From contig NZ_AZDU01000018.1 of the NCBI RefSeq assembly GCF_001434815.1, positions 1 through 38,580 of the forward strand: a stretch of DNA of 38,580 nucleotides, read 5' to 3'. The notes under the pieces were generated by a model. That model had not been told where the DNA came from. It ran no database searches and saw only the letters and a list, made by a program, of their open reading frames with translations. The translations under genes were made by a program, and so were the position numbers. The stretch is from Lactobacillus equicursoris DSM 19284 = JCM 14600 = CIP 110162 (lineage in GTDB: Bacteria > Bacillota > Bacilli > Lactobacillales > Lactobacillaceae). Position 1 is the stretch's first letter. Each line of letters opens with the position of its first letter. Shown piece by piece: positions 16,543 through 38,580 of this stretch.

Positions 16543-17026
16543 TTCTACGAAAAGAAGACGAGCGCTGGGCCGGAAGATTTTTAAAAGACACAGAAACCTC
16601 TGGGTCTACATGTTCTTCGGCTTCGTTGCCGCTTTAATCAATACCGTGGTCTTCATGTTCATGCATGACGTCTTGCACACGGTTTTGGTCATCGATAACA
16701 CGGTGGCCTTTATCATCTCGAACCTGGCCTCCTTCTGGTTCAACCACAAGGCCGTGTTCACCAGCAATGTCGACCATGACCACAATATCTGGCAAAAGCT
16801 AGCCAGCTTTTTTACCTACCGGATCATCAGCTTGATCCCCGACACCCTGATCATGTGGGTCGGGCTGTCGCTACTGCACTGGGATGCCTTGATTGTCAAG
16901 ATTATCGACCAGGTGCTGGTTGGGATCTTTAACTATCTGACGACCAAGTCAGTCTTTGAAAAACAGGAGCGCAGCATAATGAAGCGCGTACATGACCGGC
17001 TAAAGAAAAACACCGAATCGAAATGA
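16535..17026 (+). CDS. GtrA family membrane protein
   Basis: The 163-aa protein has four membrane helices: about 22-42, 52-72, 87-110 and 115-135. It carries the GtrA family signature FVAALINTVVFMF and NLASFWFNHKAVF. GtrA proteins are thought to move undecaprenyl-linked sugars across the membrane for cell-wall glycosylation. A basic tail (KRVHDRLKKNTESK) ends the protein. The ATG lies inside the last codons of the flavodoxin gene, so translation is coupled. The stop codon is in the loop of the following terminator. Confidence 0.9.
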   Translation: MDNSTKRRRALGRKIFKRHRNLWVYMFFGFVAALINTVVFMFMHDVLHTVLVIDNTVAFIISNLASFWFNHKAVFTSNVDHDHNIWQKLASFFTYRIISLIPDTLIMWVGLSLLHWDALIVKIIDQVLVGIFNYLTTKSVFEKQERSIMKRVHDRLKKNTESK

Positions 17027-17039
17027 TTCGGTGTTTTTT
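17006..17039 (+). terminator. Terminator of the flavodoxin-gtrA operon
   Basis: AAACACCGAATC, a loop holding the gtrA stop codon, and GATTCGGTGTTTTTT form a strong hairpin. A weaker GGGT/ACCC hairpin with six T residues follows at 17059-17076. Confidence 0.88.
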
Positions 17040-17373
17040 AGTTGGGTGCGGCAGCGCGGGTATGCAACCCTTTTTTGCACAAAAATGAGTCAACTGATGT
17101 TGTAGCTGCTCATAAACTTACTCAACCGGTACCAGTCCGCGCACAAAAACTATGTCAACTAACGAAATGGCTGCTCACAAAGTTACTCAAGTAAGAAAAA
17201 AGCCGCACACGATCTTACTCAACTCGCCCCGACCTGCTGCCAGTTGAGTAAATTTTGGGCCACAGTTTTGCTTACTTGAGTATGATTGTGTGCGCACTTT
17301 TTCCAAAAAGGCGTGTAGTTGAGTAAATTTTGTGTCATATCCTTGTTTACTTGAGTCAATCTGTGTGCATCCC

Positions 17374-17694
17374 GCCCCCAAGTTGACTCAACCGGACTCG
17401 TTTTTGACGTTTTTCGCCCCCAAGTTGACTCAACCGGACTCGTTTTTGACGTTTTTCGCCCCCAAGTTGACTCAACCAGACCCATTTTTCCAATTTTTCG
17501 CCCCCAACTTGACTCAACCGGGCTCGTTTTTATCGTTTTTTGCCCCCAAGTTGACTCAACCGAGCTCGCTTTTACCGTTTTTCGCCCCCAACTTGACTCA
17601 ACCGGACTCACTTTTACCGTTTTTTGCCCCCGATTTGACTCAACCGGGCTCGGTTTTGTCGTTTTTCGCCCCCAAGTTGACTCAACCAGACTTG
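17374..17694 (+). repeat. 42-bp tandem array, eight units (island 1)
   Basis: Units start at 17374, 17416, 17458, 17500, 17542, 17584, 17626 and 17668, an exact 42-bp period; the eighth is cut after 27 bases. Each unit starts GCCCCCAA(G/C)TTGACTCAACC or a close variant, followed by a more variable T-rich half (GGACTCGTTTTTGACGTTTTTC type). GTTGACTCAAC is a perfect 11-bp palindrome. Changes between units are point substitutions with no length change. Confidence 0.93.
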
Positions 17695-17760
17695 GTTGAC
17701 ATACTTTGGGGGCAATTTTTGACAAAAATCCAATCGGTTGACATACTTTGGGGGCAGATA
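17695..17760 (-). repeat. Reverse-oriented 42-bp units closing island 1
   Basis: GTTGACATACTTTGGGGGCA occurs at 17695 and at 17737, again 42 bases apart. It is the reverse complement of a diverged array unit. With the last forward unit it forms a hairpin: GCCCCCAAGT, TCAACCA, a four-base loop, TGGTTGA, and ACTTTGGGGGC. Confidence 0.88.
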
Positions 17761-17868
17761 TCACTGACCAGTCGTGTAGACAAGTGCTTGGACACGAATT
17801 TATCTCGTATGAACCAGGTTTCGGCCCAAAATAGTGTCAACTGGGCAACGCGCCACCGCCCCACACCC

Positions 17869-17902
17869 AAAAAGGATCCCCCGACACAATGTCGGGGGAT
17901 CC
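17869..17902 (-). terminator. Terminator of wecB
   Basis: On the minus strand GGATCCCCCGACA, three bases, and TGTCGGGGGATCC form a perfect 13-bp stem followed by five T residues. Confidence 0.9.
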
Positions 17903-17913
17903 CACTACCTAAC

Positions 17914-19056
17914 TTACTTAAAATCTGCCGGCTTCTCGCCCTGCTTGCCGCTAAAATACCAGGCGATGTCGTCTAAAATCCGCTGGCTGGCATGCCCGTC
18001 GCCGTATGGGTTCTTGGCCTCGGCCATCCGGTCATAGGCGGCCTGGTCAGTCAAAAGTTCCAGCATGCTGGAGCGAACGGACTCTTCCTCCGTCCCCACC
18101 AGCTTCAAGGTGCCGGCCGCCACCCCTTCTGGCCGCTCGGTCGTATCGCGCAAGACCAAAACCGGCTTGCCTAGAGACGGCGCCTCTTCCTGCACGCCGC
18201 CAGAGTCAGTCATGATGAAGTAGCTTCTTTTGGCCAAATTGTGGAAATCCACCACGTCCAGCGGCTGAATCAGGTGAATCCGCGGATCGCCGCCCAGGAC
18301 CTCCTTGGCCACTGCCTGCACGCGCGGGGACAAGTGAACCGGATAGATGATTTCCACGTTATCTTGCTGGTCGACGACGTCCTTCATCACCTTAAAGACG
18401 CGCCGCATCGGCTCGCCTTGGTTCTCCCGCCGGTGCATGGTGACCAAGATGATCCGCTTGCCGGCGCCGATCTTGTCCAAAACCTCGTGGTGGTAGTCCT
18501 CTTGCACCGTTTGGCTCAAAGCATCAATGGCGGTATTGCCGGTGACAAAAATATTCTCGCCATCATGGTTTTCCTTGAGCAAGTTTTCCCGGCTCACCGC
18601 CGTTGGCGCAAAGTAAAGATCAGTCAAGACGTCGGTCAACTGCCGGTTCATCTCTTCAGGGAAGGGCGAATACTTATTCCAAGTCCGCAGGCCAGCTTCC
18701 ACGTGGCCCAGCGGCGTTTGCTCATAAAAACTGGCTAGGCTAGCTGCAAATGAAGTAGTCGTGTCGCCGTGCACCAGGACCAGGTCCGGCTTTTCCTCAT
18801 GGATGATCTTGGTCAAGTCAGTCAACACCCGGGTCGTGATGTCGGCCAGGGTCTGGTTTTGGTGCATGATGTTTAAGTCGTAGTCCGGCTGAATGTTAAA
18901 AATCTCCAGCACCTGGTCCAGCATCTCCCGGTGCTGGGCGGTAACGACAGTGACCGGCTCGAAGCGGTCGTCTTTTTCCAGCTTCAAAACCAGGGGCGCC
19001 ATCTTGATGGCTTCTGGTCTCGTGCCAAAAACGGTCATAACTTTAATCTTGTTCAT
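17914..19056 (-). CDS. wecB: UDP-N-acetylglucosamine 2-epimerase (non-hydrolysing)
   Basis: This cytosolic enzyme (also called MnaA) interconverts UDP-GlcNAc and UDP-ManNAc for teichoic acid linkage units or capsule. The N-terminal signature is VFGTRPEAIKMAPL (9-22), followed by TAQHREMLDQVL, VHGDTTTSF, GHVEAGLRTW and the C-terminal SGGVQEEAPSLGKPVLVLRD. The length of 380 aa is normal. An AAGGAG site precedes the ATG. It is a single-gene unit, next to repeat island 1 on its 3' side. Confidence 0.96.
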   Translation of the reverse strand: MNKIKVMTVFGTRPEAIKMAPLVLKLEKDDRFEPVTVVTAQHREMLDQVLEIFNIQPDYDLNIMHQNQTLADITTRVLTDLTKIIHEEKPDLVLVHGDTTTSFAASLASFYEQTPLGHVEAGLRTWNKYSPFPEEMNRQLTDVLTDLYFAPTAVSRENLLKENHDGENIFVTGNTAIDALSQTVQEDYHHEVLDKIGAGKRIILVTMHRRENQGEPMRRVFKVMKDVVDQQDNVEIIYPVHLSPRVQAVAKEVLGGDPRIHLIQPLDVVDFHNLAKRSYFIMTDSGGVQEEAPSLGKPVLVLRDTTERPEGVAAGTLKLVGTEEESVRSSMLELLTDQAAYDRMAEAKNPYGDGHASQRILDDIAWYFSGKQGEKPADFK

Positions 19057-38050: not shown

Positions 38051-38341
38051 CCATTTAGATAATTGGTAGGTTCCAATTTAACGGAATTTTTACTTAGTTT
38101 AGTAGGATGCGGGGGTTTTTAGGGAGCTGGTGCACAAGAGTTGACTCAACTAGAAGCTGTTTTAAAAAATCGTGCTCATGATCTTACTCAAGTAAAAAAA
38201 TGGCTGCACAATAATTGACTCAACTGGAAGCTTTTTTAAAAAATCATGCTCACAAACTTACTCAAGTAAAAATAGATGAGTAAGTTTCTGAGTTACATTT
38301 CTGCAATTTTGTAAATAGTTGAGTAAGTTTCCGTGCATCCC

Positions 38342-38536
38342 ACCCCCAATTTGACTCAACCGACTCGAATTTTCTCGGTTTTCGCCCCCCACTTGACTCA
38401 ACCGACTCAAATTTCCTCATTTTTCGCCCCCGACTTGACTCAACCGACTTCATTTTTCTCGGTTTTCGCCCCCCACTTGACTCAACCGACTTCATTTTTC
38501 TCGGTTTTCGCCCCCCACTTGACTCAACCAAGCCTG
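38342..38536 (+). repeat. 42-bp tandem array, five units (island 2)
   Basis: Units start at 38342, 38384, 38426, 38468 and 38510, an exact 42-bp period; the last is cut after 27 bases, as in island 1. Each has a run of five to six C, then (A/G)(A/C)(T/C)TTGACTCAACC, then a T-rich half. Confidence 0.93.
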
Positions 38537-38580
38537 GTTGACATACTTCGGGGGCAAATTCCGCCAAAAATCAGACCGGT
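38537..38580 (-). repeat. Reverse-oriented 42-bp unit closing island 2 (cut by window end)
   Basis: GTTGACATACTTCGGGGGCA begins at 38537. The last two bases of the window, GT at 38579, fall exactly 42 bases later and fit the start of a second such unit. Confidence 0.8.

Follow-up and report, generated by a model that had tools for sequence, protein, structure and literature searches.

A repeat island of Lactobacillus equicursoris as a candidate iteron-like site array of a chromosomal NERD-Rep3 protein

The repeat island between two convergent genes in the window (the whole stretch of 38,580 nucleotides that was analysed) belongs to a dispersed class of arrays built from one short asymmetric box. 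We interpret these islands, with a probability of roughly 0.6, as iteron-like site arrays of a chromosomal NERD-Rep3 protein that have spread in the fashion of REP/RAYT systems. NERD-Rep3 would be a plasmid-type Rep3 initiator fused to a PD-(D/E)xK-type nuclease domain; its initiator half would bind the boxes, all on one helix face, and the protein would coat the arrays. The gene-plus-array unit would seed many gene-less arrays at gene ends, as RAYT genes are thought to seed REP/BIME, with local over-replication, or cutting and subsequent repair of the arrays, as candidate copying routes. The box grammar, the domain make-up, the adjacency of gene and array and the co-distribution of gene and array families are established observations, from which we infer box binding by NERD-Rep3, an active nuclease and NERD-Rep3-driven array copying.

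The island occupies positions 17044-17868 between genes for a GtrA-family protein and a UDP-GlcNAc 2-epimerase (WecB-like), each closed by a terminator-like hairpin (Table 1). A first-pass annotation had described direct and inverted repeats here, which repeat finders bore out at the positions given, as well as eight direct and two reverse 42-bp units and two flanking terminators; the box scan recovers the units, and both hairpins are present. Its division into units of 64, 75 and 42 bp captured the regularity of the repeats, but the basic unit is instead a single asymmetric box of 21-23 bp in two orientations: the 64-bp unit comprises two boxes about 32 bp apart and the 75-bp reverse unit is 32 + 43. 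The reverse A-type arm starts 38 bp past the last direct A box, the D-box arm 24 bp past the last reverse A box, and the M-box arm 27 bp past the last D box. Our box model scores 19 boxes at 9 bits or more in the 825-bp island, whereas 200 dinucleotide shuffles average 0.025 and never exceed 1; as the model was trained on the same islands, this contrast measures excess over composition and is not an independent discovery. The same arrays were found by repeat finders without the box model. Long open reading frames cross the array (17219-17764 on the minus strand, 17332-17976 on the plus strand), but because a 42-bp period is divisible by three, a frame that is open in one unit carries over into the next, and they are probably not genes. 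The second island (38131-38580) follows the same plan, adjoins a phosphoketolase gene and reaches the window end; its site is common to this genome and the metagenome-assembled genome (MAG) E27__bin119 (L144). No NERD-Rep3 gene lies in the window.

Table 1 Features of the two repeat islands in the window.
Feature	Coordinates	Strand	Basis
Terminator-like hairpin, end of GtrA-family gene	17006..17038		inverted repeat
A-type arm, direct boxes 17075 (weak, 8.3 bits), 17107, 17140, 17172, 17204; spacing 32-33	17075..17224	+	box scan
A-type arm, reverse boxes 17242, 17274, 17317, 17349; spacings 32, 43, 32	17242..17369	-	box scan
C-type arm, eight direct D boxes (CGCCCCCAANTTGACTCAACC), 42-bp period	17373..17687	+	repeat finders and box scan
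C-type arm, two reverse M boxes (TGCCCCCAAAGTATGTCAACC), 42 bp apart	17694..17756	-	box scan
Lone divergent box	17822..17842	+	16.0 bits, box scan
Terminator-like hairpin, end of UDP-GlcNAc 2-epimerase (WecB-like) gene	17874..17902		inverted repeat
Second island, A part: direct boxes 38131, 38173, 38205, 38247; weak reverse box 38317	38131..38337		repeat finders and box scan
Second island, C part: five direct D boxes, 42-bp period, then one reverse M box 27 bp on	38341..38556		repeat finders and box scan

The box is C-rich at one end and carries CAACC(GG) at the other (GCCCCCAANNTTGACTCAACCGG and variants), an asymmetry that rules out a simple palindrome as the unit. The "one palindrome family" proposed earlier thus holds as a common unit and not as a palindrome, since a palindromic core is confined to the D subtype (TTGACTCAA); the subtype of the reverse arm has the sequence AGTATGTCAACC. 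Boxes are better conserved than the spacers between them, at 1.49 versus 0.87 bits per position in 192 D units and 1.68 versus 0.99 in 188 M units of this genome. A CRISPR array was ruled out, as the spacers resemble one another. Of 588 pairs of neighbouring same-strand boxes within 200 bp of each other, counted in this genome and four others, 575 are spaced by 31-33 or 41-43 bp, which corresponds to three or four helical turns. Rep monomers are described as binding iterons cooperatively, with cooperativity abolished by a half-turn shift (PMC4980987), and by that account island spacings that keep full turns fit the helical phasing needed for cooperative Rep binding. The 66 orientation changes in the same five genomes cluster at fixed distances (23 at 27 bp, 14 at 38 and 6 at 24), and a full island runs A forward, 38-bp junction, A reverse, 24 bp, D forward, 27-bp junction, M reverse. 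In 20 of the 23 junctions of 27 bp, an M arm faces a D (or unclassified) arm, one of the D arms containing a stray M box; M predominates on both sides of the remaining three. Arm lengths vary freely. Comparison of the box with 11 known plasmid iterons gave no likeness beyond chance (lowest shuffle fraction 0.12), and we dropped such likeness as evidence.

The genome (G000; 2.05 Mb, 182 contigs) contains 246 matches to the island. The 33 stretches of genome examined hold 37 array stretches of at least three boxes each, with 570 box hits; in 21 of the 37 the contig breaks off before a flanking gene on one side, and as two such stretches may be halves of one island, the number of physical islands lies between 27 and 37. 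Of the 53 gene sides that face islands, 3' ends account for 42 and 5' ends for 11 (binomial P 2e-5). Islands with both flanks known comprise 9 convergent, 7 tandem and 0 divergent pairs, compared with 14, 59 and 19 among 92 background gene pairs.

Arrays of the A/C type occur in five of 75 genus genomes: this one, G001, L. delbrueckii DSM 20074 (G011), G047 and MAG E27__bin119 (G061). The genus DNA searches scored 6-8 candidates per genome, and weak or short arrays may escape them. Because the same grammar recurs in the four other genomes, the island is not an artefact of one assembly, a concern raised in the first-pass annotation. Numbers differ strongly, from 37 stretches here to four islands in G001 and one each in L. 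delbrueckii and G047. That annotation had also assigned the DNA to L. delbrueckii, which proved wrong: the WecB encoded next to the island shares 88% identity with its counterpart in DSM 20074, 87% with that in E27__bin119 and 85% with that in L. nasalidis (G031), and the L. delbrueckii genome showed a single minimal island, a four-box vestige made up of two D and two M boxes, and no full-length NERD-Rep3. For nine of the 11 A/C islands of the four other genomes, a flank matches that of one of six islands here (three of the nine, all in G001, match one and the same island), which indicates that some sites are older than the species split and that box numbers have changed since. Three close relatives lack boxes at the GtrA-WecB site and have 52-84 bp between the protein matches, against 887 bp here. 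The island was not found in plasmid, phage and viral records; a single viral-contig pattern match (L055) covers one box only and was taken as chance. One record titled Faecalicatena absiana (L059; JAEDAG010000001.1) contains a Lactobacillus-like locus, and its label looks wrong.

Several comparisons suggest that arrays spread, namely the murC site, the edges of one array type, the strong number differences between related genomes and the box-free GtrA-WecB site of three relatives. At murC, E27__bin119 has an array-gene-array arrangement and this genome a single array, the start of which matches array 1 of E27__bin119 (94.4%) and the end array 2 (90.9%), with flanks at 86.2 and 93.4%; the difference may reflect either gain or loss. 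Five copies of the array type found beside the NERD-Rep3 gene on contig C143 share a sharp left edge and a similar start sequence within unrelated flanks. Unlike MITEs and insertion sequences, the arrays show no target-site duplication in 37 flank pairs (longest shared flank words 6.43, versus 6.51 for mismatched pairs), so simple transposition is not supported. The earlier suggestion of a non-autonomous mobile element is plausible, as arrays occupy many sites in gene-carrying genomes. Conservation of orthologous arrays does not consistently exceed that of the flanks. In G001 a near-identical IS4-type transposase (463 aa) lies by three of the four A/C islands (L136, L138, L139); with three of the four sharing flanks, IS-linked island duplication is likely there.

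The genes beside islands led to a 535-aa protein encoded next to an island on contig C150, a fusion of NERD and Rep3 parts; G001 encodes a counterpart at 97% and G061, between two islands, a relative at 51%, both likewise fusions. Full-length NERD-Rep3 is present in three of 75 genus genomes (four copies here, two in G001 and two in G061), and the eight copies represent about six lineages, two orthologue pairs being at least 97% identical. Thirteen other genus genomes match the NERD part only or the Rep3 part only. Samples of 397 family, 395 order and 398 phylum genomes yielded no full-length fusion outside this genome; G001 and G061 are absent from the family hit list and presumably lie outside the sampled genomes. 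No plasmid, phage or viral-contig record covers 80% of the fusion protein, and the Rep3 part alone is matched by 629 plasmid records. In other lactobacilli (loci L176, L177, L178, L180) we noticed NERD proteins of 545-609 aa with no recognised Rep3 domain and no adjoining array.

Pfam recognises NERD in all eight proteins, Rep3_N in seven and Rep3_C in four; the C130 protein ends about 40 residues shorter. Residues D130, E143 and K145 are invariant in all eight and form what we take to be the expected PD-(D/E)xK nuclease pattern, so that the predicted catalytic residues are intact. An AlphaFold2 model from eight sequences (pLDDT 84.6, pTM 0.66) was compared with the PDB by Foldseek, and all 40 hits at E<=0.001 are Rep initiators (RepE54, other Rep proteins, pi), many with iteron DNA and mostly with target TM-scores near 0.7; weaker hits to other nucleases begin at E 0.006. 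As modelled, the Rep half is a pair of winged helices with a RepE- or pi-like fold. A sequence-profile search with NERD-Rep3 returned no solved structure. The Rep halves separate from 15 plasmid-type Reps (100/100) in a tree that has long branches and lacks an outgroup.

All eight full-length genes have an array of period 31-32 or 42 bp nearby, within 700 bp in seven. For the eighth, G001:C12, a C-type array lies about 1.85 kb upstream with an IS4-type transposase ORF in between. The arrangements differ: at C150 a C-type array precedes the gene; G061:C14 is flanked by A arrays on both sides; C104 has 31-bp-spaced boxes in arms of 3 and 3 around an AT-rich centre; C130 has four boxes, the gene and four inverted boxes at 42 bp; C143 has 42-bp-spaced boxes on either side; and G061:C5 and G001:C15 have 42-bp-spaced boxes of two subtypes in opposed arms. 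Arrays thus lie on both sides in three of eight (C130, C143, G061:C14), as a simple inverted pair only in C130, and the position of the gene relative to its array is not constant. The eight copies represent five box families. The C143 protein is not nearest to the A/C proteins, yet its boxes have their ACTCAAC core. In a C104-type array (L169:4613-4905) the AT-rich centre of about 100 bp between the arms recalls the unwinding element of a plasmid origin.

We compared these genes with controls by a tandem-repeat test within 700 bp of the gene. Arrays spaced at 31-33 or 41-43 bp adjoin 7/8 NERD-Rep3 genes, 0/12 NERD-only genes, 3/31 plasmid-type Rep3 genes and 3/30 WecB genes, one of the last three being the window's own island; at a score of at least 100 the counts are 7, 0, 2 and 1. 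Arrays of 20-24 bp show the reverse, with 2/8, 3/12, 27/31 and 4/30, and at a score of at least 100 with 0/8, 0/12, 24/31 and 0/30. An adjoining site array is therefore normal for the initiator class, and the initiator half normally goes with 22-bp iterons, whereas the fused form goes with sites one or two turns wider. On a chromosomal-looking contig (L179; G034:C21) a Rep3 gene is accompanied by one iteron at 22 bp and at 41, 43, 63 and 81 bp, possibly an intermediate between plasmid and island layouts.

Gene and array are also co-distributed. The three genomes with a full-length gene are all among the five with A/C arrays, which has a chance of about 1.5e-4 in a hand calculation that assumes independence and ignores relatedness. 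The exceptions, with A/C arrays and no gene, are G011, whose only island has four boxes, and G047, which has one island in a genome that is 67% complete. For each of the other four box families, every genome in which it was found also carries the cognate gene. C15-type arrays occupy about ten sites in G001 and in G061 occur at the gene only; nine were read, with a junction of 38-39 bp in eight and 70 in one. Elsewhere in the genus this type gave only a weak cross-match in this genome (C109, E 3e-7, 67%), which sits inside an A/C array and was not counted. The C104-, C130- and C143-type arrays have further sites only in this genome, the sole carrier of those genes among the 75. As the families were defined by the array beside the gene, only additional sites and absences count as independent evidence, and as the genomes are related, the co-distribution is not a set of independent events. 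Of the functions offered in the first-pass annotation, a protein-binding array fits best, with the NERD-Rep3 family as the candidate protein.

The main rival, which we consider unlikely, is that NERD-Rep3 is an anti-plasmid, origin-directed nuclease that mimics the initiator and binds and cuts the iterons of incoming Rep3 plasmids, the chromosomal arrays being tolerated self-sites that titrate or store the enzyme. A precedent is Odn of phage ICP1, in which a RepA_N domain is joined to a GIY-YIG nuclease; cutting needs iterons, and a changed iteron spacing lets the target escape (PMC8263062). By analogy, this makes an anti-plasmid role credible. The invariant catalytic residues in all eight copies, the abundance of Rep3 plasmids in the family (the 629 matching records), several specificities per genome and a spacing of 31-32/42 bp versus 22 bp in plasmids are in line with such a role. 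However, the island and the four other array types have no match in 72,556 plasmids, a two-unit query giving one plasmid hit only, at chance level; PADLOC matches none of the eight genes; and among the ten neighbours examined the genes sit with metabolic and transport genes, with no evident defence island. Array multiplication, moreover, is not explained by this reading alone. A more specific form, which we regard as quite unlikely, is a chromosomal immune or incompatibility system assembled from plasmid parts, in which several NERD-Rep3 proteins, each with its own iteron specificity, would cut 22-bp-spaced iterons while hundreds of wider-spaced self boxes hold the enzyme uncut, spacing alone separating self from non-self.

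Alternatively, the arrays could be satellites that have nothing to do with NERD-Rep3, whether some other protein binds them or no protein does, and that grew by slippage and recombination. Their variable copy number within and between sites and their location at insertion-tolerant gene ends (the 42 of 53 flanking sides) are compatible with this, but five different box families each stand beside their own NERD-Rep3 gene, the spacing classes are the same across families, boxes are better conserved than spacers in both D units (1.49 versus 0.87) and M units (1.68 versus 0.99), and NERD-only controls have arrays in 0/12, all of which makes satellites very unlikely. Handcuffing is a known property of Rep proteins, and NERD-Rep3 might pair distant arrays in this way, bridging or condensing DNA. 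Many long arrays across the chromosome, with phased sites and a two-armed layout, would suit such an organising function; the array number, on the other hand, is so variable between genomes that it argues against a conserved chromosomal role, and a nuclease domain would be unexpected, so we judge this highly improbable. A structured RNA, also raised in the first-pass annotation, is scarcely tenable, since the better folding of the island than of shuffles (z -5.05, 20 shuffles) is what inverted repeats alone yield, the arms are unequal, no Rfam match was found, and the middles of the D and M boxes are unpaired in 20 of the 23 27-bp junctions.

The preferred reading, arrays of NERD-Rep3 sites that spread from gene-plus-array units, has its closest parallel in REP/BIME-RAYT systems. 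In those systems a RAYT gene has REPs of its own class on its flanks, and the number of REPs tracks the presence of RAYT (PMC2817692). Shared with these systems are intergenic, high-copy, regularly spaced sites in opposite orientations (PMC2817692; PMC3116915), the pairing of each repeat class with a cognate gene, repeat numbers that follow the gene (except in G011 and G047), and gene-less copies that are likely non-autonomous. In contrast, the gene here is NERD-Rep3, in which Pfam shows NERD and Rep3 as the only convincing domains and no tyrosine (Y1, HUH) transposase, and the boxes are asymmetric, phased and in long arrays, with no transposition signature found. Given the different protein class, the NERD-Rep3 system would work like REP/RAYT without being a member.

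Theta plasmids of the Rep3 type (PMC4980987) share the winged-helix initiator half and an adjoining array of 20-23-bp sites in helical phase. The present system differs in being chromosomal and nuclease-fused, in its spacing of 31-32/42 rather than 22 bp, in its two opposed arms of different box subtype and in the dozens of additional arrays elsewhere. Odn is alike in joining a nuclease to the iteron-recognising DNA-binding part of a replication initiator, but its domains belong to other families (RepA_N and GIY-YIG), it is a phage gene acting against a satellite, and the accessible part of its description mentions no dispersed iteron arrays in its own genome (PMC8263062).

The literature searched, with subscription papers largely outside it, holds no description of chromosomal iteron arrays with NERD-Rep3. 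The parts are known and the plan appears new, with a nuclease-fused plasmid initiator and dispersed, phased, two-armed chromosomal arrays of five specificities; the function is our proposal. If binding were confirmed, a gene-plus-dispersed-repeat system would be seen to arise from a plasmid initiator and a nuclease with no transposase, a long-unexplained kind of bacterial repeat would gain a named protein partner, and plasmid replication parts would be exemplified as domesticated on a chromosome. Several protein/site pairs of differing specificity would become available for studying how initiators read iterons and how spacing exerts control. The arrays would also account for assembly breaks, with 21 of the 37 stretches at contig ends.
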